A stretch of 64,000 nt of DNA, from positions 3,906,001-3,970,000 of the forward strand of contig OX442322.1 of assembly GCA_949358305.1 (NCBI GenBank), given 5' to 3'. The DNA is from Strigamia acuminata. Lineage: Eukaryota > Arthropoda > Chilopoda > Geophilomorpha > Linotaeniidae. Shown piece after piece: positions 9,640 through 62,812 of the stretch; within the stretch, counting starts at the first letter, position 1, and every line of letters begins with the position of its first letter. The notes beneath the pieces were generated by a model, which saw nothing but the letters and a program-made list of their open reading frames with translations, made no database searches and was not told where the DNA came from. The position numbers and the translations under genes were made by a program.

Positions 9640-9958
9640 TGTTATAATGTTGCTGTGAATCCATATAAACAGCTAGTATATGCAGTGGTGTGGAAAAACA
9701 TAGCAGGTGATAAAAGCACACATCATCACAGGTGAGAATCAAACATCAAGTGATCTTTATTGATTGGTCACATGACCTCAATGCAATCAGCGCCACCTGT
9801 AGGCAGCATACAGACACTGTATGTAAACAAACATTGCGATCACTCGCATTGGCCAAACACATACACTAACACTTAGCTACATGATAATACGCAAAGATAT
9901 ATATATACACACGTGTTGTAAATAGTGATTGCTTATCAATATACATTATATCTTAACA
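9640..9958 (-). repeat. A 5' LTR
   Basis: 319 bp, no difference from 4030-4348 seen by eye. It is followed by the ATAAC duplicate at 9959-9963. Confidence 0.97.
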
Positions 9959-9963
9959 ATAAC

Positions 9964-35934: not shown

Positions 35935-36606
35935 GATTGTACGGAGGAAAAATGCGTAGAAATGGGAAATTGAAGCACAATCGACGCACAATTCACGCAC
36001 AAACGAAGCACAAATCACGATGCGAAGCACTTTACGTAGCACTGTCAAAGCGGAAACCAAGAATGGGCGATTCCTTCTAAAGGAATCAAATAGCTTTCGG
36101 TTGCCAGTCTGAGAGGGTCCGTTCGACTTCCTGGAGCCGCGGGAAACCTCACTTGTACCACGACAAGCACAACCGAAAAATACAACGGCGCTTGCCCGGA
36201 TTCGGACGAAGGGCGCCGAGGATTCTAATTGTCCCACACCAAAATACCCACTTAAAACTAACAAAGGTAAATCGACTCTGAAAAGCAAAATAAGGCGAAA
36301 TTGACGAATCAGTCGCGGTGCACGTCGCAACACGCGATCCTCGTGTGAAAAACACGGATATGTGCGATTTTAAACGAAAAATCGCAAAAAATGAACGAAA
36401 ATCATCGATACTGTCGCACACCGGGGTGCTAAACAGCGGGTTACACCCGTTTCTCGGTGATAACGTCGTGTAGACGTCGTCGCATGTCGAAAATCGGTGT
36501 AAATCGGCAAAAAATCTGAAAATATAGAAAATTTCCGCAAAATTCGCAAAAAAATCGCGAAAATTGTGGAAAATTAAGGAAAAAACGAGGCTCTGGTGTC
36601 TTTCCA
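35935..36606 (-). other. D 5' leader
   Basis: About 670 bases between primer site and ATG. The open frame through it has no recognisable protein features, so I leave it untranslated. Confidence 0.55.
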
Positions 36607-38645: not shown

Positions 38646-41600
38646 TCACGATAGGTTGAAATTGAAAATCCGGGAAATCAGGAGACGCAGTTGAGATGAG
38701 CTCAACCATTTGGTAAAAATGTCTGCCACGTTCATTGATCCGGGGACTTTGCGCAATTGAAATGCGCCTGCTGTGTACCATTCCCGAATCCAATGAAATT
38801 TCACTCGGATATGTTTCGTTTTACTGTTCTCCACGTCATTCGATGTGAATTGGATGGAAGAAAGCGCATCGGAGAACACTATAGGTGGTGAAGATCTATT
38901 CAGCATCGGTACGGAACTGTAGACGTAATCGAGCCAATAAAGCTCACGGACGCACTCAACGAGGGCGACAAACTCCGCTTCCATCGTTGAGCACGCCACG
39001 CTGGTTTGTTTACGACAACTCCATCCGATGGGGACGTTTCCAATATAGGCTATATACCCGCCGAAACTCAAAGAAGTGCTGACTTCGGTGGCCCAGGACG
39101 CGTCAGTATATCCCCATAGTTGTCCATTGGAACAATTTGACAGTTCAATTGCGTAATCCAAAGTATTGCCTACATAGCGCACAACCTGCATTTGATGTGA
39201 GTGTGGTTGTAGCAATTATTGAACTGTGACAACATTATCACTGAGAATAATATATCAGGTCGTGTCCTCGATGCGAGGAAGAGAAGAGAGCCAATTAACG
39301 AACAATAAGGAAATTCTGGCAAGTCCTCTTTCGACCCTTTGACGAGCGTCGTTCCTGGTGTTACTGGGACCTTGATGAGTTTATCGGCGACAATTTCAAA
39401 TTTCTTGAGAATCTTCTGTATGTATGCACGTTGGATGATGAAGATTCCCTTGGGAGTACGAATGAACTCTACCCCTAAGAGTTTCGTAATTGGTCCTAAA
39501 TTCACGACATCGAATTTGGTGCTGATGAGCGCAATTAATTGCGCCAGGACGTTATCCGTCGCGTAAAATAGAACTATATCATCGACGTATATTAGCATCA
39601 CGGCGGAAGTTCCGTATATGTACACACAGTTGCACCCTGGTAATCTGCGAAATCCCAAATCGCGCAATGTTTGATCCAGTTTTTCAAACCATTGGCGCCC
39701 GGACTGGTGGAGTCCATAGAGCGACTTTATGAGGAGCCAAACGTGATTTGGATTTGAACATGTTGCGCCAGCTGGAATGCGCATATACACCTTATGCGCA
39801 AGATCGCCATATAGGTACGCGCACTTCACATCTAAATGCGCATCCTTCCACCCTTTGAGGACTACTAATAGGCAGAAAAACAGGCGTATGAGAACAAAGT
39901 TGACAACAGGGCTGAAAACTTCGTCGTAGTCTACTCCTAAAGTTTGACGGAAGCCCTGTGCCACTAATCTGGCGCGATATCTAGCTGGCTTGCCTAGAGC
40001 ATCTTCCTTCAGTTTGAAGAGCCACTTACACCCTAATATGGTTGTATTTTCCGGTTTAGGGACCTCTTCATAGACGCCTCTTTTTGCAAAAGTGTCTAAT
40101 TCTTCATTAATGGCTTCTTGCCATTTTGTCGCATCCGGAAATCTCACAGCCTCTGCATAGCTGGTAGGGTCACGGCGACACAAATGCACTCTAGGAAGTG
40201 GTAATGGAAGATCCTCCAATTCGTATTCCATATTGCCAAAATAAAATAGTTCAGGATCATAAGGAATGTTATTCATGTGACAGAATTCCTCAACGTCACC
40301 TCTAGAACGTAATCGGAGTCCTGCTTCTGGGAAATAATAGACATCTGTTTTTAATTTGCCGGGTTCCTGCACTTTGCGCAAATGTTCCTCCCTTTTCCAG
40401 TGTCTACACACAGTATCTCCACCAATGTATTGCCACTTATACGCAGTTGCTGCTCCAGTTGGAGGTGGACCATGGTGGGCTGCTTGATGAACTTGTGGCG
40501 CATTTCCACGAGAGCCTCGACGAGTATTTACAAAACTCGGAGGTGAACCAGGTGGTGTATGACTTGGTGTATTGCCGGGAGTAATAACTGGACTCGGCAC
40601 TGGTGTTATTACTGGAGTAATCAAAGGAGCTCGAATAGGAGATCCCGGAGTTGGAGTGGCTGGTGGAGTCCGGAATTGAGCACCCGCTGGGGTCGAATCG
40701 TCAGAGTCATAGTCCGTATCACATTCATCCTCTGAATCCGGAAATTTGGGCCAATCAGTATATTGTAGACCGTCGTCTTCAAACCTCACTTGCGGTTGTG
40801 AAATGCGCAATGGTTGACGAATTTGTGACGATTGACGCGTTTGGTCCAGATCTGGTCCCATCCACGGTTGCTGTGGTCCTCGATAATGATTAGAGCGCTT
40901 ATAAGATTGCCGTTCATCAATTTGGACGTGAATGGACTCGATGACCTTGTTGTCTGTCGGATTCCAGATGCGGTAGCCTCGCGTTGTGGTGGCGTATCCA
41001 ACCAAGTAGCCCTCCCAAGCTCGTGGATCGAGCTTGTCCCTGCCAGGTGCTGTGTGATGAACCCAGCACTTGGAGCCTAACTTGCGCAGGTGTCTAAGCG
41101 AAAGGGCACGTCGTCGCCACAGGATATAGGGGACCTCATTTTTGAGACGAGAATGAGGGCACCGGTTCTTTATATAGGAGAAAGTCACTGCGAATTCCGC
41201 CCAAAGTTCATTAGGTAATCCGGTTTCATCTAAAATGGCACGAGTATAATCCGCCATTGTGCGATTTATTCGTTCTGCTGTGCCATTCATAGCGGGGCTA
41301 TGGGGATTGGTCCGCTGGGCTTGAATTCCAGTTTCTTTCAGATAGCGTTCAAATTCATTCGATATGAATTCTCCTCCTCGGTCAGTTTGGATGGCCTTGA
41401 CTCGTTTGCCCGTCACTCGTTCAATTCGCGTGACGTAATCTTTAAACAATCCAAATACTTGGGATTTTTGGGCCATCGGAAGTATCCAGGCGTAGCGCGT
41501 GGCGTCGTCGATAATCGTTAGCACATAACGCGCGCCTCCGTAGGAAGTTGTTCTTGAGGCTCCCCACACATCCATGTGCAGGAGATCTAAAGCCTTGGTT

Positions 41601-43454
41601 GCAATGGGGTGCGCATCCGGCTTGTGAGAAATGCGCGTTGATTTCGCAATTCTGCAATGATTACACGAGAGTTCTTTGTTCACTTCTGCCGGTGTAACTC
41701 CGTAAACTTGTTCATTTCCGGCCAAAAGTTTCATAGCATTGGTATGAAGATGACCCAATCTGCTGTGCCATATCCCAGTCGCATCCTTTTTGACCGTAGG
41801 CGCTGCAACTTTCTTTTGATTCGCCGATTTTGGATTCGGTTTGGAAGTTGTAGGAATTGCCTTTATTGTATCGGCAAAGGATGGGACTTGAGGTAAAGGA
41901 TTGGTAGGAACAGGTACAGGAGGTGTCTTGGACTGGGTTACTTTGATTGGTACAGGTGGAGGAATTTCATTTGGCAAAGGAGGGAATTCGAGCCGAAAAT
42001 CAGTAAAAAGTTCAGGATCTTTCGACTTTTTCTTTGCCCTTGGATACTGGATGAAATCCTCTTCTGTCGTGACTAATGTTCGGGTCGAAGCGGTCGACTG
42101 CGCAATAGGCACATCCACTGTTGATATCAACGTTGAAGGTGGGCACAAGCCGTCAACATAGTAAAGGCCGCCCTTTTCTTTGGCCCGAAGCATTGGATGC
42201 TTAATGTCGGATTTGTAGACATAAACGTCTCCATTCCAAATATGGATGTGATGTTTAGTTTTATCCATTTTTGACACTGAAATCAAATTCGCCTCAAATT
42301 TTGGCGCATACAACACATCTTGGAGATTTACGACACATTCTACGTTGTTAATCATGGAGATAATCTGGATTTTGCCCTTTCCTAGAACTTCGGAATGTTC
42401 TTGACCCAATGCGATATTAAAGGGCACAACTTTGACAAAGTCCTGAAACCATGCTTGGACGTGGCACACATGATCCGTTGCCCCACAATCCACTATCCAT
42501 TCATGTGATTGCATGAAGTGAATTGTGGGCATTGGTTGAGGCGCACTGGCGAAAAAGTTCATTTCCCGTCTTGCGCTGGAATTCCCCCTTGGCCTCGAAT
42601 CATCACGGTTTGAGTTCTTGTTGCGTTTGCGGCTAGAACTTCTTGGCTTCCTTTGAAGTGAAGCTGTCGGTTGATTTTTGTCATCTCGGCGCGGCGGTAA
42701 TGGACATTTATTTGCGTAATGGCCAAATTCCTGGCAATTAAAACACTGCACCGAAGATAACGGTCGAGAGGGACGAGAACGATTTCTCCCACGTTGCTGT
42801 TTTTCACTAGCAGAGGCACGTGGAGATTTAGAATTGTCTATGTCGCGCGAATCCATAGCTTTGAGTCGCATATGTTCCGCGAGCAATTGTTCAGACACTT
42901 TCTTTGGTGTAAATTCTCCTTTGGGCAAGTGATATGTCGTGAATGAAATCTGTGAATATTCACGAGGCAATAAGTCCAAGTATTGGTAAGCGTGATGATC
43001 AGGCGTAGTTATCTCTCCGATATCCTTCATTTGGCGGACATGATAGTCTACGCGTCCTAAGAAGTCGGCCATATCTTCGCCCTGCTCCAGGCGCAAATTC
43101 AAAAATTCGCGGCGCATGGCTGCCTGTCGCGCACGAGATGATGGCGCATAAATGTTGGCTAAGATGTCCCATGCTTCCTTCGGGGTTTTACAATCATCTA
43201 GCGCAGACTTCTTCGCCTCGCTTACAGAACAGTATATTAAACCTAAAGCTTTGGCTTTACGACGCTTGTATTTCTTCTTCTCCTTATCTCCGGCGGTTTT
43301 AAGGAAATCTGCCTCTTCTTCTTCCGTCACATGTTCCCACAATTCTTCACTTCTCAGCACCATGCGCATTGAGCGCTGCCATAGTTCGTAGTTTACATAA
43401 CACTACGCTGAGAATGGGAAGGCGTCCGGAATTTCCTTCGACGGACTTGGACAT
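38646..43454 (-). pseudogene. gag-pol: E1 gag-pol with two frame breaks
   Basis: The expected start (MSKSVEG) is at ATG 43454. About 7 extra bases near 43400 shift the frame within the first 30 residues. From there one long frame (43369-39170) carries UBN2-like Gag, CCHC knuckle (CFNCQEFGHYANKC), protease DCGATDHV, integrase (HSRLGHLH...CNHC; HMDVWG, QTDRGGEF, NGTAERIN), acidic linker and RT with YVDDIVLF. Near 39190 about 7 bases are missing compared with E', and RNase H (TDASWAT, TMEAEFVAL) continues in another frame to 38646. It cannot make a complete product without suppression of both shifts. Confidence 0.9.
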
Positions 43455-47315: not shown

Positions 47316-50300
47316 ATGTCGAAGTCCACAGACGATAATCCAGGACAACTTCCCATCCTTAGCGTAGGGAACTACGAACTTTGGCAGCGCTCAATGCGCA
47401 TGGTTCTCCGAAGCGAGGAGTTATGGGAGCACGTAACCGAGGAAGAAGAGGAGGAGTTCCTTAAAACAGCTGGAGACAAAGAGAAGAAGAAGTATAAGCG
47501 TCGTAAAGCCAAGGCATTAGGCTTGATATATTGTTCCGTGAGCGAGGCTAAAAAGTCAGCTCTCGATGATTGCAAAACCCCAAAGGAAGCATGGGATATC
47601 TTAGCCAACATTTATGCGCCATCATCTCGTGCGCAACAGGCAGCCATGCGCCGCGAATTTTTGAATTTGCGCCTAGAGCAGGGTGAAGATATGGCCGACT
47701 TCTTAGGACGCGTTGACTATCATGTCCGCCAAATGAAGGATATCGGAGAGATAACTTCGCCTGATCACCACGCTTACCAATACTTGGACTTATTGCCTCG
47801 TGAATATTCACAGATTTCATTCACAACATATCACTTGCTCAAAGGTGAATTCACACCAAACAAAGTGGCTGAACAATTACTTTCGGAACATATGCGACTC
47901 AAAGCGACAGATTCACGCGATTCGGACAATTCGAAACAATCACGTGCCTATGCTAGTGAGAAACAGCAACATGGGAGAAATCGCTCGCGTCCCTCTCGAC
48001 CGTTATCTTCGGTGCAGTGCTTCAATTGCCAGGAATTCGGACATTATGCGAATAAATGCCCTTTACCACCTCGCCGAGATGATAAAAATCAATCATCAGC
48101 TTCTTTTCAACGGAAGCCTAGAAGTTCTAGCCGCAAACGCAATAAAAACTCAAATCGAGATGATTCTAGGCCAAGGGGGAATTCTAGTGCAAGGCGAGAA
48201 ACAAACTTTTTCGTCAATGCTCCTCAATCCATTCAGTTGCCCACAATTCACTTTATGCAGTCGCATGAGTGGATAGTGGATTGTGGGGCAACTGATCATG
48301 TGTGCCACGTCCAAGCATGGTTTCAAGACTACGTCAAAGTTGTGCCTTTCAATATTGAGTTAGGGCAAGGACATTCACAAGTCCTCGGAAGAGGCAAAGT
48401 GCGATGGATTGCGACCACCTTCAGTTGTTTCAACGGTGAATACGCCCATCTCTCAGCCGCCTGCTCCTGTTCGAACCCTAGTAACAGCAGAAGAGGATTT
48501 CATCAAATATCTGGAGGCAAAGAAGAAATCAAAAAATTCCGAACTTTTTACGGATTTTCGTCTTGAATTTCCTCCTTTGCCAAATAATATCCCTCCGCCT
48601 GTTCTCACCAATCAAGCCCAATCCAAAACCCTTCCTGTACCTGTTCCTACCAATCCGATGCCTCAAGTCCCATCCTTTGCCGACACATTAAAGGCAAATC
48701 CTTTGACTTTCCAACCGAATTCAAGTTCGAAACCGAATTCAAAAACGGTTAAAACAAAGACGGTTGCAGCGCCATCGGTTAAAAAGGATGCGACTGGGAT
48801 ATGGCATAGCAGATTGGGTCACCTTCACACCAATGCTATGAAACTTTTGGCCGGAAACGAGCAAGTCTACGGAATGGAACCGGCAGAAGTGAACAAGGAA
48901 CTTTCATGCAACCATTGCAGAATAGCGAAATCTACTCGCATCTCACATAAACCGAATGAACATCCAATTTCCACTAAAGCTTTGGATCTCTTACACATGG
49001 ACGTGTGGGGAGCATCAAGAACAACTTCCTACGGAGACGCGCGTTATGTGTTGACTATCATTGACAATGCCACGCGCTATGCCTGGATATTTCCGATGGC
49101 CCACAAATCTTAAGTGCTCGGACTCTTTAAGGATTATGTCACACGAATAGAGCGAATGACCAATAAGCGAGTAAAGGCCATACGGACTGACCGAGGAGGG
49201 GAATTCATATCAAATAAATTTGATCGATATCTCAAGGAAACTGGAATTCAGGCCCAACGGACCAACCCCCATAGCCCCGCTATGAATGGCACAGCGGAAC
49301 GTATAAACCGCACAATGGCGGATTACACGCGTGCTATCTTGGACGAAACTGGACTTCCAAATGAGCTTTGGGCAGAATTTGCGGTAACGTTTTCATACAT
49401 TAAGAACAGATTTCCTCATTCACGTCTCAAACATGAGGTACCGTACATTTTGTGGCGACAACGTGCCCTTTCTCTCCGACACCTGCGGAAATTAGGCTCT
49501 AAATGCTGGGTACATCACACAGCACCTGGCAGGGACAAGCTAGATCCACGAGCTTGGGAGGGCTATTTAGTCGGATACGCCACGACAACGCGAGGATATC
49601 GCATCTGGAATCCGAAAGACAACAAGGTTATCGAGTCCATCCATGTTCAAATCGATGAACGACAATCTTATAAGCGCTCTAATCATTATTTCGGTCCGCA
49701 AGAGCCATGGATGGGACCAGATTTGGACCAAACGCATCAAGCGTCGCAAACTTATCAACCATTGCGCATTTCACAACCGCAAGTGAGGTTTGAAGACGAT
49801 TTGGAATACACTGATTGGCCCAAATTTCCGGATTCAGAAGATGAATGCGACACGGATTATGATTCGGACGACTCAATTCCGCCAGGCGCTCAAGCCCGGA
49901 CACCACCTGGGTCTCCGATTAGAATTCCAACACCTGTCCAATCTCCAATAATTTCTCCAGGGACATCCCGAGCGCCAAGCCCACTTATCACACCAGGTAC
50001 TACGCCAACTCATACACCGACGGGTACGCCACCAGGTTCACTACCAAGTTTCGTGAACGCTCGTTAAGGTTCTCGTGGTAATGCAGCACAGGCCCATCCA
50101 GCAGCACAGCATGGCCCACCTCCAACAGGAGCTGCAACTGCGTATAAGTGGCGTTATGTTGGAGGCGATTCCGAGTGTAGGCGCTGGAAAAGAGAGGAAC
50201 ATTTGCGCAAAGTGCAGGAACCTGGCAAATTGAAAACAGATGTCTATTATTTCCCAGAAGCAGGACTCCGATTACGTTCTAGAGGTGATGTTGAAGAGTT

Positions 50301-51945
50301 CTGTCACATGAACAACATTCCTTATGATCCCGAATTATTTTATTTTGGCAACATGGAATATGAATTAGAAGACATTCCGCCACCACTTCCCAGAGTGCAT
50401 CTGTGTCGTCGTGATCCCACTAGTTACGCAGAGGCTGTGAGATTTCCGGATGCGACCAAATGGCAGGAGGCCATTAATGAGGAACTAGACACTTTCGCAA
50501 AGAGAGGTGTTTACGAAGAAGTCCCAAAACCGGAAAACAGGAAGATATTGGGATGCAAGTGGCTCTTCAAACTCAAAGAAGATGCTCTAGGGAATCCAGC
50601 AAGATATCGCGCCAGATTAGTGGCACAGGGCTTCGGTCAAACGTTAGGAGTAGACTACGACGAAGTTTTTAGCCCTGTTGTCAACTTTGTTCTAATACGC
50701 CTATTCTTCTGCTTCCTAGTTGTCCTCAAAGGATGGAAGGATGCGCACTTAGATGTAAAGTGCGCGTACCTATATAGTGACCTTGCGCATAAAGTGTACA
50801 TGCGCATTCCAGCTGGCGCAACCTGTTCTAATTCAAATCACGTATGGCTCCTAATAAAGTCGCTCTATGGTCTCCACCAGTCCGGGCGCCAATGGTTTGA
50901 AAAACTTGATCAAACATTGCGCGAATTAGGATTTCGCAAATTACCAGGATGCAACTGCGTATATATCTACGGTTTCTCCGCCGTGATGCTCATAGTTGTC
51001 GATGACATAGTTTTATTTTATGCAACTGATGGCATCCTGACTCAACTAATTGCGCTCATCAGCACCAAATTTGACATAGTGAATTTGGGCCCAATTTCGA
51101 AGCTCTTAGGTGTAGAGTTCATACGCACTCTTAAAGGAATCTTTATCATCCAACGTACATACACACAGAAGATTCTCAAGAAATTTAAAATTGCTGTTGA
51201 TAAACTCATCAAGGTTCCGGTGACACCAGGGACAACGCTCGTCAAAGGGTCGAAGGAAGATTTGCCAGAATTCCCCTATCGTTCATTAATAGGATCTCTT
51301 CTCTTCCTCGCTTCAAGAACACGACCCGACATATTATTCTCAGTGATAATGTTATCCCAGTTTAACAATTGCTACAACCACACTCACATCAGAGCACTCA
51401 TGCAGGTTGTTCGCTACGTGGGAAACACTGTTGACTACGCAATTGAACTGTCAAATTGTTCCAATGGATTACTCTGGGAATACACTGATGCGCCCTGGGC
51501 CACCGAGGTTAGCACGTCCTTAAGTTTTGGCGGCTATATAGTCTACATTGGGAATGTCCCCATCGGATGGAGTTGCCGAAAACAGACCAGCGTGGCGTGC
51601 TCAGCGATGGAGGCAGAATTTGTGGCCCTCGTTGAGTGCGTCAGGGAACTCTACTGGCTGGATTATGTCTACAGCTCCGTCCCGATGCTGAATCGTTCAT
51701 CACGACCCATTGTGTTCTCCGATGCACTGTCTTCCATACAGTTCACTTCTAATGACGTGGAGAACAGTAAAACAAAGCATATCCGAGTGAAATTTCATTG
51801 GATTCGAGAATGGTACACAGCAGATGTATTCGAACTTCGAAAAGTGCCTGGATCAATGAACGTAGCAGATATCTTCACCAAATGGTTAAGCTCACCACAA
51901 TTGCGTCTGCTAATTTCCCGGATTTTCAATTTCAACCTATCGTGA
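47316..51945 (+). pseudogene. gag-pol: E' gag-pol, multiply broken
   Basis: ATG at 47316 (MSKSTDDNPG). Gag with CCHC knuckle and protease DCGATDHV are open to about 48400. There a deletion of roughly 250 bases compared with E1 removes the protease C-terminal part and shifts the frame. Integrase continues from 48409 (HSRLGHLH...CNHC, HMDVWG), a TAA interrupts at 49111-49113, then RTDRGGEF and NGTAERIN follow. A second TAA lies at 50065-50067 in the linker. RT and RNase H are open from 50203 to 51945, but the RT catalytic motif reads VVDDIVLF in place of YVDD. It is inactive. Confidence 0.9.
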
Positions 51946-52154: not shown

Positions 52155-52206
52155 TGTTGTTTTCCGATACCAAATAGTCCTCCGTATTCATTTCGTGTAT
52201 TTATAT
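52155..52206 (+). repeat. E' 3' LTR, left part
   Basis: The first 52 bases of the LTR (TGTTGTTTTCC...), interrupted by gypsy F. Its last four bases, ATAT, are the target duplicate. Confidence 0.88.
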
Positions 52207-52750
52207 TGTTACGAGCGCAGACCTCGCTGTACGACAGCGGGCCTAAACGCTCTGTTTAGAGAATTAATTCTGAAAGCTCTCACTAGGCACACTGGAGTTT
52301 CCAAATCCGCTCACCAGTTGTCACTGTGTTAATTATGCACAGGGCAACTGGACTAATCAATCAAGTAGAGCGGGGGTGGACCCAGAGTTTACCTGGTGAG
52401 CTAAGTGGGTTTGAGAGAGCAGAAATGTTCTGAGCCTCAAACAGTTAACATGGTAAGTAAAGGCTTCTGTGGACCAGCGCACACAGCGCTTGGTCCCACC
52501 CCGCCTTTCCAAATTCATAGAGATATAATTTGATTATCATTCTTGCTTTCTTGCTTTATGTTTATGTAAAATAAAGGATTATGTTTATCATTTGATTTTG
52601 TTAAGTTTGTAATAAGTCCCATAGAATAAAAGAGATTTATTTAAATGATAAATCAGTTCTCTCAATCATTTCACCTAAAGGATTTCAAGGTCTTTGCTAA
52701 ATTAATTAGCATTTGTTATGTGTGTGGATCACCCCAACCCACACGTAACA
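52207..52750 (+). repeat. F 5' LTR
   Basis: TGTTACGAG...CGTAACA, 544 bp. AATAAA at 52570-52575 and 52625-52630. A consensus splice donor GTAAGT starts at 52453. Confidence 0.96.
52453..52458 (+). promoter_or_regulatory. Candidate 5' splice site in the F LTR
   Basis: ATG|GTAAGT, a near-perfect donor. Together with the acceptor at 58635 it could produce a spliced ORF3 message. Confidence 0.4.
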
Positions 52751-52753
52751 AAG

Positions 52754-52767
52754 TGGTGGAGATGCGG
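52754..52767 (+). other. F primer binding site, tRNA not identified
   Basis: TGGTGGAGATGCGG begins three bases after the LTR. The TGG start fits a tRNA 3' CCA, but I could not match the tRNA. Confidence 0.55.
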
Positions 52768-53529
52768 AATTAAAAGACCCTGTATAATTGCTTTATTTAA
52801 GAGCTAAAATGTTAGTAAAAATCTGGAATTTTGAGTAAAATAGTTGAAAATTTGTCCCTGAAAATGAGTAAGGTTGAGAAAGCAAATTGCCTATAATATT
52901 ATCAGATTTGAAAGCAAATAAAGAGACTTGTGAAAATCAATTTTAGTGTGAAAATTGAGAATTGGGAATGAATATTTAATTGTTTTGTGTGAAAATGTTG
53001 AATATTTAATTATCTTGTGTAAAAGTGTTGAATATTTAAGTGTTTGAGTTGAAACTGAGCATGAATGTTAAATGAGTTTGCATGTTACTGAATATTTAAT
53101 TAGTTGAAAACAATTAAACAGTATTTTAGAATTAAAGCCTAGTTTTAATGATAAATCATTTTAAGGTTATACATATTTTGAATAATTTTAAGAATTGTAA
53201 ATAGTTTTAAAACAATTTTAACTCATGCACAGTTATAAGTAATAATATTATGAATTATTTTCTTTTCTCCTTAGCATGGTGAAAGTGTTTTAGTGATTAG
53301 TGTTTCACAGGTGAGGTGAATTTGTGTTTTGTGAGTGTGTGCCTTCTATGGTTGGAGTGGATCCATATTGAAGCTGGATCCTTCAAATATAACATTTCGC
53401 AAGAAATCATCAAGTATAATTGCGGAAGACAGAGAGCGACACTACACATTAACAACAGAATTCAAGTCTGATGAACATTTGGATAGTGAGATAGAACCAG
53501 AGGATAGTGAACCTCTAGAAGAAGTCAAG
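52768..53529 (+). other. F 5' leader
   Basis: AT-rich, no ATG-initiated ORF of substance. Contains 30-bp direct repeats at 52970-53029. Confidence 0.55.
52970..53042 (+). repeat. Short tandem repeats in the F leader
   Basis: Two 30-bp units (52970-52999 and 53000-53029), each beginning GAATATTTAATT and ending in a GTT, are followed by a partial diverged third unit. Confidence 0.7.
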
Positions 53530-54597
53530 ATGGCGACTAGCTCAACTGCAACGTTGGAAACCCTATTAAAAGGACTAGTAGTGCAAAAGCGCAATCCAGT
53601 CAATTATGATACCAGAACGGGGAACATTGACGAATGGATTGTTGGTTATGAAGCGATTGTTGCTACGGATACGGAACGTGCCAAGCATCTGCCGATTGTA
53701 ATGAAGGAAGATGCGCTCTCCTGGTACGTCGAGCAGCTACAAGCTAACCCTAGCTGGGCTTGGGACGAATGGAAAGCAGCATTGCAGAAAAAATTCCGCC
53801 GTAGGCCCGAGCACGTCCTCAATACCCTACACGCCCTTAAGCATGAAGAAGGGACAGCCATTGACTTTATTAAGAAAGTTCTCCACTTGTGTTCATTTGC
53901 CAGACCAGCCCTCAGTGAAACCCAGAAAATCAACTATGTCTATCAGGCTATGAAACAGCCGATAAAAGACAGGTTGATGACAGTTTTTCCTACAGCTATG
54001 GATGATTTGATGGAAAGAGTTCAGCTTTATGAAGCCCATGGAGTGAAGGAAGATCCGTCGACAGCTTTACTGACCCTTGTACAGAAACTTGTGGCTGACA
54101 AGGCGACCGTCGCACCGTCAACTTATTTGACTGGAGTGGCAGAAGCCCCAAAGTCGCTCGCAGAACTTGTAGCAGAAAACAACTTTCTAAAAGAACAGAA
54201 TATGTTTTTGCAGAATGGCGTATTGCAAGAGACGATCTCTCCAATTTTCCATCAAGGGACTTGGTTTACCCCAGTCAACAATCAGCGTCAAGGAGGAAAA
54301 TTTTTCCAAGGAACCCAGCAGAAGCAGCAGCAATTCCAGCAAAGTTCTCCGCAGAACTGGCAGAATTTTCAGCAGCAGCAAACTGGACCCGGATGTTTCC
54401 ATCAGCCCAACTGCACCTGCTGTGCGTCACAAAACAGAGGTGGCGGTGGGAAGAGGCGTGATACTTGGCGTTATAATAATAAGAATAATGAAGAAAATAA
54501 CAGTAACCAAGGAAATGGTCCTGCTAACAATAACAGCGGTAATAACCAAGCAAGAAATCCACCTGGGAATCAAAAACAACAGAACCGGGGAAACTAG
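53530..54597 (+). CDS. gag: F Gag
   Basis: I choose ATG 53530 (MATSSTATLE), the first ATG in this frame, in good initiation context (AAGATGG); 355 residues. A capsid-like region contains WYVEQLQ, WDEWKAALQKKF and the HxxGTAxxF-type segment (ALKHEEGTAIDFIKKV). A coiled-coil-like AELVAENNFLKEQN follows, then a glutamine- and asparagine-rich basic tail. There is no CCHC knuckle. A cysteine cluster (CFHQPNCTCC) and RGGGGKRRD may take the RNA-binding role. TAG at 54595-54597 directly follows a slippery heptamer. Confidence 0.9.
   Translation: MATSSTATLETLLKGLVVQKRNPVNYDTRTGNIDEWIVGYEAIVATDTERAKHLPIVMKEDALSWYVEQLQANPSWAWDEWKAALQKKFRRRPEHVLNTLHALKHEEGTAIDFIKKVLHLCSFARPALSETQKINYVYQAMKQPIKDRLMTVFPTAMDDLMERVQLYEAHGVKEDPSTALLTLVQKLVADKATVAPSTYLTGVAEAPKSLAELVAENNFLKEQNMFLQNGVLQETISPIFHQGTWFTPVNNQRQGGKFFQGTQQKQQQFQQSSPQNWQNFQQQQTGPGCFHQPNCTCCASQNRGGGGKRRDTWRYNNKNNEENNSNQGNGPANNNSGNNQARNPPGNQKQQNRGN
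54588..54594 (+). promoter_or_regulatory. -1 ribosomal frameshift heptamer of F
   Basis: The gag frame reads CGG GGA AAC TAG, so the heptamer G GGA AAC is in correct phase immediately before the stop. Shifting back by one base enters the pol frame, which is open here. Confidence 0.8.
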
Positions 54598-54599
54598 TA

Positions 54600-57500
54600 G
54601 TGCCACAAAGACAGTTAAAAAGTAGGCGTAGGAGAAGAAGAATGAGAAGGAAGTTGGAAATAGTTGACATTAACACCACTGAAGAAATGCTGACAATACC
54701 TGTCGTAGTGAACAATTTAGAAGTCAAAGGTGTATTGGATTCAGGTGGATATAGAAATATTATAAGTGAGGAACTGGCTGATAGATTGCAACTGTCACGT
54801 CGGCTTTGCCCTTATATCAAATTGAGGGTAATTGATAACTCCTTAATATCTCCTGAAGGAATTGGGAAAATTACAGTCACTATTGGAAGATTGGACTACA
54901 GCATGGAGGTATTAGTAGTGCGGGGATTTGGTCATGAGCTCTTACTAGGTGATCCTTTCCTCAAACAAGCAGGGTGTGTGTTGGACTATGACCGACGGAA
55001 GGTCTTTGTGGGGCGAAAAAGTGAAGGATTTAAACCGGAAGTTTTTCCAATGTCAAGAAATTATCTGGAACAAACATTTATTGGCAGACTTACTAAATCA
55101 ATAAAAATTCCAGCAATGCACGAATGCATGCTTTTCATTGGAGTGAACAATAATAAAACTAATGAAGATTTGTTTGCAGAGCCATTATCCAATTTGACTG
55201 ATAGATTGGGAGTAATTGGCTGTAAAACTCTAACTACATTTAAGGATGGATCAGGCATAATGCGAGTTGCGAATCCGACGAAGAAGGCGGTTTATCTGCA
55301 GAAAGGAACAGCGATTGCCAAGGCATACCACGTCATTGACATTGGTAGTTTTGAGGAGCAGCCACCTAATGGCTTGAACTTTGATTCCGCCGTGTCAAGT
55401 GATCTACTGGATACAAACCAAAAGGAGCAGCTGAAGAGCCTACTGCGTAAGAATGAAGATAGATTTGCCACTTCAGATCAGGATTTAGGCAGAGTAAAGG
55501 TCTACAAGCATAAAATAGACACAGGTGATGCACAGCCAATTCACCTGCAGCCATATCGCCGATCCATGAAAGAGAAAGAAGTCGAAGCAGAGGAAACCCA
55601 GAAACTGCTTGAAATGGATGTAATCAGAGAGTCCGAGAGTCCATGGAGTGCGCCAGTCCTTTTAATTAAGAGACGTGATGGCAAATGGCGGTTTTGTGTT
55701 GATTGGAGGCGGCTGAATGCAGTGACTAAGAAGATGGTTTACCCACTCCCCCGAATCGACGACACCTTAGACCAACTGTCAGGTGCGAAGTATTTTTCCA
55801 TGATGGATTTAATCCAGGGATATTTCCAAGTCGAGATTGATGAGGAGGATAAGGAAAAGACTGCGTTCACAACGTCTTCCGGTCATTACGAATTTAATGT
55901 ACTGGGCCAGGGCTTGTGTAATAGTCCTGCGGCATTCCAAAAGCTCATGAACAAAGTGCTTGGTAACCTCCTAGGAAAAGTGTGTATAGCCTACTTGGAC
56001 GATCTGATCATCTTTTCAAAGACATTCGACCAGCATTTGGTTGATTTAGACAACGTCTTTTCGAAATTGCGCACGGCGAATTTAAAGGTCAAATTAAGTA
56101 AATGCACTTTTGGAACGGATACCATTAAGTATTTGGGACACGTCATCAATGCAAAAGGAGTTTCACCGGATCCACGTAATTTGGAGTCCGTGGCGAAGTT
56201 CCCAAAACCAACAACAGTAAAGCAGTTGCAAGGATTTCTTGGATTATGTTCTTATTATCGCAAATTTATTCGTGGTTTTTCAGACGTGTCCAAGTGCCTT
56301 GTAAATCTGACAAAGAAAGAAGAAAAGTATGATTGGGGACCGCCACACGATGAAGCGTTCCAGAAGCTGAAGACGGCCCTAACGACAGTTCCAGTGCTGG
56401 CTCATCCAAATTTCAGCGAGCCCTTTATGATCTCTACTGACGCCAGTGCATATGGATTAGGAGTTGTGCTGAAACAAAAGATAAATAAACAAGAACATGT
56501 CGTAGCCTACGCTAGCCGACTGCTTAGCAAAGCAGAGCAGAATTATGATACGACAGAACGTGAGTGCCTTGCGATCATCTTTGGCATACAAAAGTTCCGA
56601 CCTTACTTGTATGGCCAAAAATTCTACGTTATTACGGACCATTCAGCGTTGCAGTGGCTCAAAACTGTGAGAAATCCCAACGGACGACTCACCAGATGGT
56701 CACTCCAATTGGTGGACTATGACTATGAGGTCATTCACAAGAGTGGTAAAAAACATCAAGATGCAGATGCGTTAAGTCGTATTCCTGAGGCAGTGGGCGA
56801 AGAAGAAATAATTGATTTACCTTTGTTGCTACTGGAAAATCTGGACCTACCTGCCGAGCAGCGAAAGGATCAGAAGCTGAAGGAATACGTTGATGCACTT
56901 CGAGATATTGAGCGCCTTTCGAAAAAGAAGAGACGATCTTTACAACAGTTCGTGCTCCAGGATGAAGTTTTGTTCAGAAGGAAGAATTTCCTGGGCAACG
57001 AAAGGTTACTGCTGGTTGTGCCAAAACATTTACAGCAAGATGTTCTGCACGAGATGCATGATGGCCTTCCAGGAGCTCATCTGGGCCTGTCGAAAACTTG
57101 GAAAAGAATAAGCACCAGATTCCATTGGCCCAGAATTTATGCAGAGGTCAGAGACTATGTCTTGTCCTGCAAGAAGTGCGCTGCAGCAAAAACAGATACC
57201 ACACCACCAAAAGGATTATTGCAGCCCTGGACAACCGTGACCAGACCATTCCAAAGAGTAGGAATGGACACTTTAGGAAAATTCCCGACTTCAAAGAAAG
57301 GGAATAATTATGTGTTTGTTATGACGGACTATCTATCTAGAGCGGTCTGTGCGAGAGCGTCACCAACTTGCACGGCCATTGCAGCAGCGGATGCTTTAGT
57401 TTATGAGATAATGGTGAAAGAAGGATCTCCAAGGGAAATTCTGACTGACCGTGGTACAGAATACAGAAATGAATTGATGGAGGAGGTCTCGAGACTCTAT

Positions 57501-58499
57501 AAATCAAAACATAAAACAACTAGCGGATATCATGCCAGGACAAACGGTTTAACGGAGCGTTTTAACGCAACACTTGCGAAAATGCTTCTGAACTACGTAA
57601 ATGAAGATCATACGGACTGGGATGATTTCCTGCCACACCTGTTATTCTCGTACAACACGTCGGTTCACGAGACAACTGGATATACCCCATACTTTTTATT
57701 AAGGGGGTATGAAGCAGATGTTAACGTCGATGTGAATCTGAATCTCCCGAAGAAGGAATTCACTTTGAGAACTGCCAAATTCATCGAGGCAGCAAGGAGA
57801 ATCTCAAACCAGAGACTGGAGCAGATGTCAGCTAAAAGCAAAGAAAGATTTGATAAGAACAGAAAGGTTGTGGAGTTCGAGCCTGGAGAATACGTTTATT
57901 TGAAAAAACCGAACAGAAAGGTTGGACTCAGTGAGAAATTACTGCCACAATATTCTGGTCCTTACGAAATAGTGCGCCGAACTGCACCAAACGATTACCA
58001 AATAGTAGATTCAACTGGTAAAAAATCAGACATTGTAAATGTAGAAAGGTTAAAACCTTACAAGCCAAGGAAAGAAGTATCCATAATTATGGACAGGAAT
58101 AGTGAAACTGAGGTGAAGGCGGAAAATTCTAACAAAACTAAGTTGATGGAAAGTAAAGGAATTGAAGAAGTTAGAATTAACACTAAAAAATCACTAAAAC
58201 AATCAAAAAAACCATGCACAGAAAGATTCATAAGTGATGAAGATCAGATTTCTTTAAAGTCGTTGTTCGAACCGGAGGAGACGACGGGAAAACGGTTGAA
58301 AGAATTGCCGCTGGTCGGCGATAAAGACGAAACGTCGGAGAAACGTTTGACGAAATTGCCACTAGATGGCGATAAAAGAAAAACGTCAGGACAGCGTTCG
58401 CGGAAATTGCCACCAGAGGGCGTCGTCGACGAAACACGTGACTTCCGTTTTAAGCATTTAAGACCGCGAGCACGGACGAATTATCGTCAGTTCTACTGA
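54600..58499 (+). CDS. pol: F Pol (protease, RT, RNase H, integrase)
   Basis: Expressed by -1 frameshift from gag; no ATG is needed at the start. About 1299 residues. Protease DSGG (Asp near 47, with Gly where most have Ala or Thr), RT with WRFCVDWRRLN, MDLIQGYFQV and YLDDLII (near 465), RNase H TDASAYGLG (near 612), integrase zinc region (HDGLPGAHLG...CKKC) and DDE residues near 889, 948 and 984 (MDTLGK, LTDRGTEY, GLTERFN). A GPY/F module (YSGPYEIV) lies near 1118. The C-terminal 100 residues are a basic extension with three repeats of a KLPxxG motif. There is no stop or frameshift. Confidence 0.95.
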   Translation: MPQRQLKSRRRRRRMRRKLEIVDINTTEEMLTIPVVVNNLEVKGVLDSGGYRNIISEELADRLQLSRRLCPYIKLRVIDNSLISPEGIGKITVTIGRLDYSMEVLVVRGFGHELLLGDPFLKQAGCVLDYDRRKVFVGRKSEGFKPEVFPMSRNYLEQTFIGRLTKSIKIPAMHECMLFIGVNNNKTNEDLFAEPLSNLTDRLGVIGCKTLTTFKDGSGIMRVANPTKKAVYLQKGTAIAKAYHVIDIGSFEEQPPNGLNFDSAVSSDLLDTNQKEQLKSLLRKNEDRFATSDQDLGRVKVYKHKIDTGDAQPIHLQPYRRSMKEKEVEAEETQKLLEMDVIRESESPWSAPVLLIKRRDGKWRFCVDWRRLNAVTKKMVYPLPRIDDTLDQLSGAKYFSMMDLIQGYFQVEIDEEDKEKTAFTTSSGHYEFNVLGQGLCNSPAAFQKLMNKVLGNLLGKVCIAYLDDLIIFSKTFDQHLVDLDNVFSKLRTANLKVKLSKCTFGTDTIKYLGHVINAKGVSPDPRNLESVAKFPKPTTVKQLQGFLGLCSYYRKFIRGFSDVSKCLVNLTKKEEKYDWGPPHDEAFQKLKTALTTVPVLAHPNFSEPFMISTDASAYGLGVVLKQKINKQEHVVAYASRLLSKAEQNYDTTERECLAIIFGIQKFRPYLYGQKFYVITDHSALQWLKTVRNPNGRLTRWSLQLVDYDYEVIHKSGKKHQDADALSRIPEAVGEEEIIDLPLLLLENLDLPAEQRKDQKLKEYVDALRDIERLSKKKRRSLQQFVLQDEVLFRRKNFLGNERLLLVVPKHLQQDVLHEMHDGLPGAHLGLSKTWKRISTRFHWPRIYAEVRDYVLSCKKCAAAKTDTTPPKGLLQPWTTVTRPFQRVGMDTLGKFPTSKKGNNYVFVMTDYLSRAVCARASPTCTAIAAADALVYEIMVKEGSPREILTDRGTEYRNELMEEVSRLYKSKHKTTSGYHARTNGLTERFNATLAKMLLNYVNEDHTDWDDFLPHLLFSYNTSVHETTGYTPYFLLRGYEADVNVDVNLNLPKKEFTLRTAKFIEAARRISNQRLEQMSAKSKERFDKNRKVVEFEPGEYVYLKKPNRKVGLSEKLLPQYSGPYEIVRRTAPNDYQIVDSTGKKSDIVNVERLKPYKPRKEVSIIMDRNSETEVKAENSNKTKLMESKGIEEVRINTKKSLKQSKKPCTERFISDEDQISLKSLFEPEETTGKRLKELPLVGDKDETSEKRLTKLPLDGDKRKTSGQRSRKLPPEGVVDETRDFRFKHLRPRARTNYRQFY

Positions 58500-58595
58500 A
58501 CCCGTCTTACCGTAAACTCGACCTGATCGAGTGATAAAGTGAGATAGGTGAATTAAACTGTTGAATTTTGGATTGAATTTGGACTTAGAAATTGT
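58500..58595 (+). other. F pol-ORF3 spacer
   Basis: 96 AT-rich bases. Confidence 0.5.
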
Positions 58596-59984
58596 TTGAA
58601 TTTTGAGTTGGATTTTAACTTAGAAAATTTTTCAGCAATGGAAAATTTGAAGATTGCGCGTGACTCGGACGAGGATTCAAATGCGTCGCACGAATCGAAG
58701 ATATTTCATACAGTGTATACCCGACGAGAGAACGAATTTCCCTTGCGTGACGAAGAAATTGAGCAGTTGCCGAGGATTAGGGAAATTGATGATTTAATTG
58801 TGTGTGAGCGACCATTTACAGATCGAAACAAAGTTCCGGTTGGTACAGTGGATAAGCGAACAATGATGACGCCACGCCAATTAAAGAAGTACGAACATAA
58901 ACGAAATTCACGTCATCGACGGCAAGCTTCGAAACGATTGGATGCAAGGACGGAGATCGCTCTTGAGTCGGAGAAGGGATTAAAATTCATGAGAAAAAGG
59001 CAAGTCCGAGCGAAACAACAGCAGGAACGCCGATTAGGAGAAGTTCGACAGGAACGAAAAAACATCATGGCGGCAACTAAGGAAAAGAACTTGACCGGAA
59101 CTCCGGGATGGAGCGGCTACACGGCGTGGTTGCGTGTGGAGACGGATTTGGCGCTGAAGGAGGCAGAAATTCGAAAGAAAAAGCAGCGAGCGGAGGCGCT
59201 GATGAGGCGAAAATTCAGGAACGATCCCGATGTTGACTTACCGTCGGCTTTGCGAACTTATCGCGTAGGCTTGACGGTGAGCCAGCAAACGGAAATTCAA
59301 GAATGGAGCGCGACATTTGCGGATGTGAATTCGGGGATGGAATGCTTCACGACGCCAAACCGGGAAATCGTGGTGACAGCAGGTGAAATGGCGTCATTGC
59401 TGCGATTGATGCCGGGCCGGGATTCATGGGTTTTCGACTCGGTTGTCGATTATTACCTAAACATCGTGACTTCGGATCCGGCCTATCGACGTGTTTTCGC
59501 GTTTCCAACTGCTGCCGTGCAGTACATGATCAGACGGCAATATAATGAAGCAAGAGCTGTAATGAACGGATTTTATCCAAGACCGACTCACAAGGTTTGG
59601 GTAATCCCGATGGGAATACCCGAACATTGGCAGCTGGCCATCGTCGATTTTACGCGCCCAAGGACGGAGGTGGCCCTGTTCGACCCAAGCGGCCCATTAA
59701 CGATGAAGGATATAAGATGGCAGGCTGTGTTAAATGGTTTGGCGAGTTTTAACATCCAGCTCAACCAACTCCACCCATTTGAAGCGCCGGCGATTGGCCA
59801 ACTGGACGGGGACAGTTGTGGCCCAACCATCTTATATTTCGTGCGCCGATATCTAGTTGACCGCGACCTAATGCTTCCAGCGCTCCCTTACGATTTAAGA
59901 AGCCGAATTGCGTTGGAGATCATTAAAGATCAACTAATACCTTTCGAGGAGGACGTGACAATTGAAGAAATCGAAGAAGATTAA
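58596..59984 (+). CDS. F ORF3: Ulp1/SENP-like (C48) cysteine peptidase
   Basis: 462 residues from ATG 58596. A splice acceptor at 58635 would favour ATG 58638 (448 residues). Residues 1-90 are acidic. Residues 95-215 are very basic and predicted helical (RQLKKYEHKRNSRHRR), suggesting nucleic-acid binding or nuclear localisation. The C-terminal half has the Ulp1 signature in order: DSWVFDSVVDYYLN (near 275), the catalytic HW (His344), FDPSG (Asp363), then GQLDGDSCGP with Gln402 for the oxyanion hole and Cys408 as nucleophile. Known C48 enzymes remove SUMO or related modifiers. Here a role in processing or in deconjugating host SUMO is inference. An adenain-like protease of the same clan is the main alternative. 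Confidence 0.82.
   Translation: MNFELDFNLENFSAMENLKIARDSDEDSNASHESKIFHTVYTRRENEFPLRDEEIEQLPRIREIDDLIVCERPFTDRNKVPVGTVDKRTMMTPRQLKKYEHKRNSRHRRQASKRLDARTEIALESEKGLKFMRKRQVRAKQQQERRLGEVRQERKNIMAATKEKNLTGTPGWSGYTAWLRVETDLALKEAEIRKKKQRAEALMRRKFRNDPDVDLPSALRTYRVGLTVSQQTEIQEWSATFADVNSGMECFTTPNREIVVTAGEMASLLRLMPGRDSWVFDSVVDYYLNIVTSDPAYRRVFAFPTAAVQYMIRRQYNEARAVMNGFYPRPTHKVWVIPMGIPEHWQLAIVDFTRPRTEVALFDPSGPLTMKDIRWQAVLNGLASFNIQLNQLHPFEAPAIGQLDGDSCGPTILYFVRRYLVDRDLMLPALPYDLRSRIALEIIKDQLIPFEEDVTIEEIEED
58625..58635 (+). promoter_or_regulatory. Candidate 3' splice site before F ORF3
   Basis: A pyrimidine run ends in TTTTTCAG at 58628-58635, two bases before ATG 58638. Confidence 0.45.
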
Positions 59985-60297
59985 AAATCGAAATTACAAT
60001 TGTTATCGGTATAATTTTGTGTAAGATTTTGTTTTAGATTTTCTCTTGTGTATAAATAAACACGAAGAGTTTAATTTTATGTAATTGGCTTTTCCAAGAA
60101 AAGTATTGTTAAACTAAGAATTGAGGGATATAAAGGTAATAGAACAATTCTCGTAAATTTTGTTAATAATTTTGTGAAAAGCAAGAATGATGTTGAAAGT
60201 TAGAAGTGAAAATGATAATCTCGAAGTAGAAATTTGGGGGGATTTTCATTTGAAATAATTTGAATTTTGGAGACCAAAATTTTTCAAAGGGGGGGGC
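59985..60297 (+). other. F 3' untranslated region and polypurine tract
   Basis: 313 AT-rich bases with no ORF. The run AAAGGGGGGGGGC at 60285-60297 abuts the 3' LTR and is the polypurine tract. Confidence 0.7.
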
Positions 60298-60841
60298 TGT
60301 TACGAGCGCAGACCTCGCTGTACGACAGCGGGCCTAAACGCTCTGTTTAGAGAATTAATTCTGAAAGCTCTCACTAGGCACACTGGAGTTTCCAAATCCG
60401 CTCACCAGTTGTCACTGTGTTAATTATGCACAGGGCAACTGGACTAATCAATCAAGTAGAGCGGGGGTGGACCCAGAGTTTACCTGGTGAGCTAAGTGGG
60501 TTTGAGAGAGCAGAAATGTTCTGAGCCTCAAACAGTTAACATGGTAAGTAAAGGCTTCTGTGGACCAGCGCACACAGCGCTTGGTCCCACCCCGCCTTTC
60601 CAAATTCATAGAGATATAATTTGATTATCATTCTTGCTTTCTTGCTTTATGTTTATGTAAAATAAAGGATTATGTTTATCATTTGATTTTGTTAAGTTTG
60701 TAATAAGTCCCATAGAATAAAAGAGATTTATTTAAATGATAAATCAGTTCTCTCAATCATTTCACCTAAAGGATTTCAAGGTCTTTGCTAAATTAATTAG
60801 CATTTGTTATGTGTGTGGATCACCCCAACCCACACGTAACA
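60298..60841 (+). repeat. F 3' LTR
   Basis: 544 bp, partner of 52207-52750, followed by ATAT. Confidence 0.96.
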
Positions 60842-60845
60842 ATAT

Positions 60846-61280: not shown

Positions 61281-61848
61281 AACGATACAAGCGGCACAAA
61301 CGGTTACGCAACCTGAACAAACAGTTTTACAGTCGGTGAAACCGAAAACACAAGTTCAACCAACAATTTCAAGTCAGTTGAAACAGATTGTGTGGGAACG
61401 TGAATTAATTCCCAGATCGACAGGAAATCGAACCAATGTTTATTATTTTTGTGACGGTCAAAGGATCAAGTCTAAGACTGACGTGGCGGTTTTATGTCAA
61501 GCTAAGAATTTAAATGTAAATCTTGACGCATTTGATTTCTCACCGAAGAATTTGGTAACAGGCCAAGTGGACATTCCTCCGAAATCGCATGACGTGGCCA
61601 AACCAAATAACACCGATTCTAACACAGTCGACCAAGATTTCTTTGATTTCTTTAATGGATTAGAATGTTGCGATGTCGAAAACCCGCTATCATACGAAGA
61701 AGCAATAGAATGTGAAGATGCAAATCAATGGAATGAGGCGATGCAAGACGAAATAGCAACGCTGGAAGAAAGAAAGGTCTTTTCACTCGTTCCACCTCCA
61801 AAAGGGAAGAAGATTTTAACTAATAAATGGGTTTTTGTCCGAAAATGT
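61281..61848 (+). pseudogene. C pol, integrase-RT linker and start of RT
   Basis: Open frame continuing copia C. It includes the conserved pre-RT segment (NPLSYEEAIECEDANQWNEAM) and the first RT strand (TNKWVF), then is cut by LTR H2. The remainder of RT and RNase H are not in the window. Confidence 0.8.
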
Positions 61849-62812
61849 TGTGACGATTCTACTTTTGGCTGAATAATTAGCCATTATAAGAGATAAATCG
61901 GTTTAAACAAGACATTTCTACAACTAGAAATAACCTAACCGAGATAAGCTACGGAAGTCTGTACAACGTGAATATGTGATCAAATATAACAAGTTACGAT
62001 TTTCGTGTGATTCAAATACATGTTTATTAACATTACAACTGGGTTGGGGTTCTGGATAAGTGTAACGGCGGCTACACTGGTTGAGGATCCGGGCGATTCT
62101 GTTCGAGTGGTGCGGCTGACTTTGCGGCATCGTCACAGTTAGCGCTACGGAGACGTATTCGGTCCCGCAGCTCGGATATCTATTAATACGAAGAATCCTT
62201 CGTATTTGGTCGGGAATGTTCATTAGAATATTCCGTGTTCAGATCAATAAAGCATTATTAGTGTAATATAACAAATGAATTGTTATATTGTTATTCTATG
62301 GGCGGGGACAGTCACGACAGTCGAGGGGACCATCGCGGGAGTTGTTGAGGCTCCATCCGCCAGCATGCCTTACGACGACAAGATCTCGTGATAAGGCGCC
62401 GAGTATTTGTTTTCTGCATCAAGTCGCTTTCAGTGGTACCAACCACTGGGTAAACAGTTCCTGGGGGACTACCAGATCGGCATTACCAATACCCGAGTAT
62501 TTGTTTAGCGCAAGGTATGAATGCAATTGCTCACGGGCTACCAACCCGGTGCGTCGCCTGTAGATAAGGCTTTTACCAACCTCAGGCAAATCTTGCCTAC
62601 TTAACGGAAGGGCCAATGCACTGCATCGGAACCCTGGGAAAATGGTTTGCCCGCATTTGTTTGACGGGTTTGACTTCCCGTGTATATGCTCTGGCAGAGC
62701 ATCTGACCAAGGAGGTGAGAAGGAGATGTAACTGAATATACACTTCCGGTACAATGCTCACCTTCGGTGAGATGACATCATAAAATCTCAAGCGGCCATT
62801 TTGCATACAACC
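61849..62812 (-). repeat. LTR fragment H2 (same family as H1)
   Basis: Begins TGTGACGATTCTAC as H1 does and can be followed alongside it to about 62812, with one unit of the segment that is doubled in H1 (from about 62300). The H1-type right end is absent, so H2 is truncated or interrupted. Orientation is inferred from H1. The right limit is approximate. Confidence 0.7.

Follow-up and report, generated by a model that had tools for sequence, protein, structure and literature searches.

The stretch of DNA analysed here, called the window below, is 64,000 nucleotides of contig OX442322.1 of the chilopod Strigamia acuminata (GenBank assembly GCA_949358305.1, positions 3,906,001 to 3,970,000 of the forward strand). 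It holds element F, which is a Ty3/gypsy retrotransposon judging by its long terminal repeats (LTRs), its target-site duplication, its gag gene and the order of protease, reverse transcriptase, RNase H and integrase in pol (the gag match is under its Pfam cut-off and the aspartic protease matches are slightly under theirs). An earlier note on this DNA had called F intact and had placed a third open reading frame, ORF3, at 58596-59984, inside the LTR-bounded unit and on the same strand as gag and pol. Both descriptions are correct: the two 544-base LTRs are identical, ATAT stands on both sides, and gag and pol are present. We argue from the sequence that ORF3 is very probably a cysteine peptidase of the C48 (Ulp1/SENP) type whose catalytic centre is intact, related to the enzymes that detach the small protein SUMO from other proteins, and that it is the standing third gene of a gypsy lineage with several families in this genome. 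The features are collected in Table 1.

The frame of ORF3 is open from 58557. Counted from a TTG at 58596 it has 462 residues. The first ATG is residue 15, at base 58638, and is probably the true start, which leaves 448 residues. Residue numbers such as His344 and Cys408 count from the TTG, and 14 must be subtracted for ATG numbering. The N-terminal half is basic and the catalytic domain covers about residues 249-436 (ATG numbering). A chance frame is ruled out by three observations. The longest open frame in 58500-60297 runs for 475 codons, whereas none of 2000 base shuffles gave one longer than 252. At 8 places, one of them in the window, a copy encodes exactly the same 462 residues. At least 93 stretches of the genome match ORF3, and 80 of them have no in-frame stop. 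The genome searched is 237.5 Mb in 157 contigs, and the ORF3 search scored the best 92 of 494 candidates.

Table 1. Features of element F and of a second gypsy family in the window (window positions; residues numbered from the TTG).
Feature	Position	Strand	Basis or remark
Element F, gypsy-type	52207-60841	+	LTR pair, ATAT duplication, gag, pol, ORF3
Target-site duplication ATAT, left copy	52203..52206		sequence
5' LTR (TGTTACG...CGTAACA), 544 bases	52207..52750	+	no difference from 60298-60841
Putative primer binding site TGGTGGAGATGCGG	52754..52767	+	position, just 3' of 5' LTR
Candidate splice donor CAG/GTGAGG (cut before GTGAGG)	53311..53312	+	top donor score within F
gag ORF, first ATG 53530	53335..54597	+	Pfam Ty3_capsid E 5.4e-6, 26.4 bits (cut-off 29.1)
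GGGAAAC heptamer, candidate -1 frameshift site into pol	54588..54594	+	directly 5' of gag stop
pol: aspartic protease, reverse transcriptase, RNase H, integrase	54600..58499	+	Pfam matches; frame open from 54546
Candidate splice acceptor TTTTTCAG	58628..58635	+	sequence; 2 bases 5' of ORF3 ATG
ORF3, predicted C48-type cysteine peptidase, 448 residues	58638..59984	+	family profile, Pfam, catalytic residues
Trp278 codon	59427..59429	+	aligns with SENP1 Trp465 (Gly-Gly lid); invariant 20/20
His344 (catalytic) and Trp345 codons	59625..59630	+	Trp345 aligns with SENP1 Trp534 (Gly-Gly floor)
Asp363 codon, catalytic	59682..59684	+	alignment with SENP1, conservation
Gln402 codon	59799..59801	+	alignment with SENP1, conservation
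Cys408 codon, nucleophile	59817..59819	+	alignment with SENP1, conservation
Polypurine tract 5' of 3' LTR	60286..60297	+	sequence; same in 8/8 F copies
3' LTR, 544 bases	60298..60841	+	identical to 5' LTR
Target-site duplication ATAT, right copy	60842..60845		sequence
Second gypsy family (a partial copy and a longer one)	2-2251, 3026-4048 (+); 16603-17292, 18389-22681, 22681-25017 (-); 9929-10672 (+)

Taken alone, the F protein does no more than suggest a C48 peptidase. Neither its full length nor its last 262 residues match Peptidase_C48 in Pfam. The last 194 residues match a single Pfam family, which is Peptidase_C48, at E 0.22 (11.8 bits against a gathering score of 20.7). The peptidase domain has eleven PDB matches, and the best ten are XopD or SENP1 (XopD 0.0053, SENP1 0.025). 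The reversed domain gives one unrelated match at E 0.7 and the shuffled domain one at E 0.68. The N-terminal part of ORF3 has no match in the PDB. It is the relatives within the same genome that settle the identification, since they supply a family profile. Alignment A2 holds 20 ORF3 proteins: the window's own and one from each of 19 fetched loci (the twentieth locus, L020, has a broken frame and was excluded). As a profile against the PDB it finds SENP1 at 2.6e-10, SENP5 at 1.4e-6, SENP2 at 4.7e-6, SENP3 at 2e-5 and Ulp1 at 1.1e-4. The top 14 of its 17 matches are SENP/Ulp1 sequences, which upholds the Ulp1/SENP-like identification of the earlier note, and XopD comes next at 0.32. Adenain is not among the PDB matches to E 10 with either the F domain or the A2 profile. 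The Pfam check that the note proposed comes out positive for the family, in which 13 of the 20 A2 members match Peptidase_C48 at E <= 1 (best 1.2e-4), and negative for the window's own full-length protein. The residues it had picked out, His344-Trp345, Asp363, Gln402 and Cys408, are where it put them and are invariant in all 20 proteins. Gln402 presumably has the oxyanion-hole role. Trp278, at the SENP1 lid position, is equally invariant. The Gly-Gly channel of SENP1 has Trp465 as its lid and Trp534 as its floor (PMC5030089).

The copies of ORF3 travel with pol. Six of the other seven F copies differ from the window's copy by 3 to 7 bases over 3746 compared. In the seventh (L003, C9:10973368-10985742) the whole upstream part is different, and pol is about 7 kb farther from ORF3 than usual, probably because of an insertion. 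The remaining full-length matches are 31-38% identical to F ORF3, and in 17 of the 20 such loci fetched the pol of the F lineage lies within the stretch (61-71% identity in matches over 500 residues; in L020 in pieces). Lineage pol is upstream of ORF3 in these 17 and in seven of the eight F loci, and the eighth has it further upstream. Three loci (L017, L018 and L019) have intact ORF3 frames and pol matches that are short, distant or absent from the fetched stretch. Of the 20 loci, 13 yielded an LTR pair, several of them clipped where the fetched stretch ends. ATAT flanks both sides in five of the six loci with complete boundaries; in L025 the two sides do not match. The eight F copies have ATAT after the 3' LTR in seven cases and ATAC in one. 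The TGGTGGAGATGCGG motif, exact or with one extra base, follows the 5' LTR in 12 of the 13 relatives that have an LTR pair.

The tree distances of ORF3 also follow those of pol, with a correlation of 0.94 over 15 sequences (Mantel p 0.0002; several pol frames are broken and are represented by their longest open piece). The two trees agree in families, except for the order within L013/L016/L021, where support in ORF3 is weak. For the most part ORF3 distances exceed those of pol by a factor of three to five. In a second family, that of L024, ORF3 lies within 4 kb of 37 of 40 pol 3' ends, one of them through the genome-wide ORF3 match. These counts come from the best 40 of 67 and the best 40 of 45 candidates, and the copies are not independent since they are at least 97% identical in the pol piece.

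Purifying selection on ORF3 in the relative families is shown by the ratio of nonsynonymous to synonymous change (dN/dS; Nei-Gojobori). Of 18 pairs, 12 have measurable synonymous change, all within families and none including F. The ratio is 0.04-0.09 in ten pairs, 0.15 in one and 0.39 in L016/L017, a pair with very few changes, so that 11 of the 12 argue for constraint. Six wider pairs are saturated, among them F against L009, the sole pair with F.

ORF3 is probably expressed from a spliced subgenomic RNA. The candidate donor and TTTTTCAG form the arrangement that a spliced env-like message would require, with a predicted junction of 53310/58636. Most of 12 relatives checked have an AG some bases upstream of ORF3, and one family has CAG/GTAA donors. 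ORF3 is not itself an env. Its maximum 19-residue hydropathy is 0.91, so it has no strongly hydrophobic stretch that could serve as a transmembrane anchor. For pol a -1 frameshift out of gag is likely, because GGGAAAC abuts the gag stop and the pol frame, in the -1 position, is already open there. This heptamer is used in retroviruses. None of 10 relatives checked has it where the pol frame begins.

It must be noted that many F copies lack the peptidase. The F pol search scored the best 36 of 6407 candidates. With at least 96% identity, 34 of the 36 belong to family F, though some are partial. Nine of these 34 have the peptidase nearby (eight whole, one truncated on C148), 24 adjoin a peptidase-deleted remnant matched whole or in part, and one has neither. 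The deleted subfamily thus outnumbers the intact F copies. The pol that adjoins remnants is 96-100% identical to F pol across the matched part. In the four remnants read (L037, L038, L039 and L040) homology ends near 58594 and returns near 59887, with 106-108 bases between. Three of the four have an open frame of 64-65 codons that begins with an ATG, and the fourth is frameshifted. The last codons of the remnant match ORF3 in tblastn, and a stretch of 12 residues closer to its start is similar to ORF3 residues 70-81 (ATG numbering), with a score that 6 of 2000 shuffles also reached. The junction piece has 31 matches, which are 29 separate places.

The earlier note held that F copies without ORF3 would make the gene a one-off capture. 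Such copies exist, but the conclusion does not follow. The remnant retains parts of ORF3 and other families retain the whole gene, so loss is the derived state. With the whole gene in other families and many copies linked to pol, a one-off capture is rejected. Since the subfamily with the remnant has multiplied, the product of ORF3 is not needed in cis. It either acts in trans or is dispensable.

We prefer the first of these, and put at about even chances a reading in which ORF3 is a Gly-Gly-specific SUMO-type deconjugase working in trans on host proteins. From the residues described above we infer cleavage after the Gly-Gly of a ubiquitin-like modifier, and SUMO is favoured because of the SENP and Ulp1 matches. 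ORF3 would be made as a separate protein, and its basic N-terminal half may guide it to its targets. Through the Gly-Gly channel it would be able to take SUMO, or a modifier like it, off host proteins, most plausibly those of the SUMO-dependent machinery by which transposons are silenced or integration is limited. Being diffusible, the enzyme could act in trans, so that copies without the gene spread while intact copies supply it. Action in trans would account for the abundance of the peptidase-deleted subfamily. Going one step further, an LTR retrotransposon lineage might counter SUMO-dependent silencing with a trans-acting deSUMOylase of its own, the deleted copies being cheaters on the enzyme of intact ones, comparable to env-less retroviral "superspreaders". 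This we put forward only tentatively, and as less probable than the reading above. SUMO is linked to transposon control in other organisms. In Drosophila a non-cleavable SUMO fusion restores Panx silencing (PMC13195609). Vandal transposons that carry KIU induce hypomethylation of related copies, and their VANC genes hold a Ulp1 domain whose role a review calls unknown (PMC13317346). The intact and the peptidase-deleted subfamilies of this one genome lend themselves naturally to comparison. SUMO conjugates should fall and the RNA of both subfamilies should rise if the enzyme does counter SUMO-dependent silencing.

Several points weigh against this reading. The deletion subfamily, which takes in most of the scored F pol copies, could equally mean that ORF3 is dispensable. 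Clan CE enzymes can show other or double specificities. A Rad60-SLD search of the genome gave 23 matches, and the places read by eye are ubiquitin genes and one exon with a SUMO-like domain, not SUMO. F itself gives no dN/dS value, as its eight proteins are identical and its comparison with L009 is saturated. The splice signals are clear in F alone: TTTTTCAG is without clear conservation among relatives and falls outside the top 20 of the acceptor scan of F. No relative of ORF3 was found beyond this genome in the protein set or in the viral and prokaryotic contigs described below. Finally, yeast Ulp1 tethered at the nuclear pore restricts Ty1 transcription, so the sign of a SUMO effect cannot be assumed (PMC8585004).

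The best of the alternatives, which we still consider unlikely, keeps the chemistry and changes the modifier. ORF3 would take ubiquitin or another ubiquitin-like protein off Gag, integrase or host factors, and would so shield either the proteins of the element or its intermediate in integration. Which ubiquitin-like modifier is accepted can vary among C48-type enzymes. The best matches are SENP1, SENP2, SENP3, SENP5 and Ulp1, which speaks for SUMO, though sequence alone leaves the modifier unsettled. Ginger1 transposases carry either a Ulp1 or an OTU domain, and the authors propose an active role in transposition for both (PMC2836005).

A second alternative is a particle peptidase that cuts Gag, Gag-Pol or a packaged protein at Gly-Gly, as adenain does in maturing adenovirus particles. 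Adenain is a viral relative, and the clan CE catalytic order and the Gly-Gly tryptophans are common ground. However, F pol already has an aspartic protease match, and this makes particle processing the less likely of the two functional ideas of the earlier note, the other being an action against SUMO-dependent silencing. ORF3 is also located outside Gag-Pol, the A2 profile matches SENPs and Ulp1 and not adenain, and the copies beside the remnant have multiplied. We rate it a little below the ubiquitin scenario.

It is somewhat less probable again that the element carries ORF3 as a dispensable passenger, or is in the course of losing a gene that it no longer needs. The number of nearly identical pol copies beside the remnant is what one would expect of it. 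On the other hand, the low dN/dS of 11 of the 12 measurable pairs and the invariant catalytic residues do not fit a passenger, and neither does its retention in several families, including nearly all of the L024 pol ends. Finally, the idea that ORF3 is a host gene, or a transposon in its own right, lodged between pol and the 3' LTR has next to nothing left in its favour: other kinds of C48 genes do exist in this genome and one F copy does have the additional 7 kb between pol and ORF3, but the many co-located pol-ORF3 copies among relatives and F loci refute it and ORF3 distances track pol distances.

The genome has at least 29 matches to Peptidase_C48. One locus (L033) has a C48 match over the cut-off, a MULE transposase match and a PHD match slightly under its cut-off in one frame; two others (L034, L035) have C48 matches over the cut-off and no other family. 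On four further C48 sequences from this genome the A2 profile reaches only 5-17 bits, which gives no origin for the ORF3 domain. Copia elements at 39173-43369 (-), 30997-36333 (-) and 61336-61869 (+) have a methyl-CpG-binding domain (MBD) match of 21.9, 24.8 and 24.1 bits (cut-off 21), which lies between integrase and reverse transcriptase in the first two. The copia at 50203-51942 (+) has one of 15.5 bits, under the cut-off, and that at 4378-8916 (-) has none at E <= 0.1. The second gypsy family of the window has further open reading frames near its pol end, one with a C2HC zinc-finger match under the cut-off (E 5.6e-4) and two with no Pfam match at 0.1. These are possibly another type of ORF3.

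Searches outside this genome did not find ORF3. Against 5.8 billion proteins, in a search that needs shared 5-residue words and admits only proteins of similar length, the whole protein drew 6689 candidates, none at E <= 10, and residues 262-450 drew 361, again with none. A viral contig collection held no outside relative with ORF3, pol or A2 as query, and a prokaryotic one held none with ORF3 or A2. The nearest named relatives of F pol are arachnids, and no ORF3-like part was found in the pol relatives, both among the best 120 of 1492. An exact nematode SL1 sequence was looked for and not found, and a search with RF00198 gave no hit, nor did its controls. Searches of the open-licence literature, judged by titles and the opening lines of abstracts and not extending to subscription papers or Repbase, turned up no C48 peptidase in an LTR retrotransposon. 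A term search of PMC7264820, PMC7998251, PMC8220671, PMC5408684 and the first of four parts of PMC6338049 found none either, and the "C48" of PMC8127270 is a treatment label and not a peptidase. The C48 peptidase and the LTR retrotransposon are apparently an undescribed pairing of two known parts.

Each part has its known counterparts. ORF3 resembles SENP1, SENP2 and Ulp1 (MEROPS C48, PF02902) in the His-Asp-Gln-Cys order, the two Gly-Gly tryptophans and the profile match to SENP1. It differs in that an LTR retrotransposon encodes it, in that it falls below the Pfam cut-off on its own, and in an N-terminal part that the PDB does not match. By position it resembles the env of errantiviruses, which also lies between pol and the 3' LTR. 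That env is expressed by splicing. ORF3 differs from it in being enzyme-like and without a strongly hydrophobic stretch. Enzyme-coding third ORFs 3' of pol are also found in bdelloid rotifer LTR retrotransposons, where they are family-specific and encode a GDSL esterase or a DEDDy exonuclease, besides env (PMC5408684). Those are other enzymes; Ulp1, SUMO and peptidase are absent as words from the main text of that paper, and its reference list includes the paper on env-less superspreaders. Among selfish elements, Ulp1/C48 domains of unproven function have been described in Ginger1 (PMC2836005), in the MULE Kaonashi/KIU (PMC13317346) and in Crypton (PMC3212892), and Peptidase_C48 is named 13 times in a paper on CACTA (PMC8978399). 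The C48 domain is part of the transposase in Ginger1, and part of another protein in KIU and some Cryptons. These three groups are DNA or tyrosine-recombinase transposons without LTRs, unlike F. A Ginger1-like C48 DNA transposon, with terminal inverted repeats, a transposase and no reverse transcriptase, is ruled out for F since it has LTRs and a reverse transcriptase. C48 peptidases of unproven purpose keep turning up in DNA and tyrosine-recombinase transposons. A C48 gene under selection in a reverse-transcribing lineage suggests that SUMO-like deconjugation may aid unrelated kinds of mobile DNA, and not one transposase.
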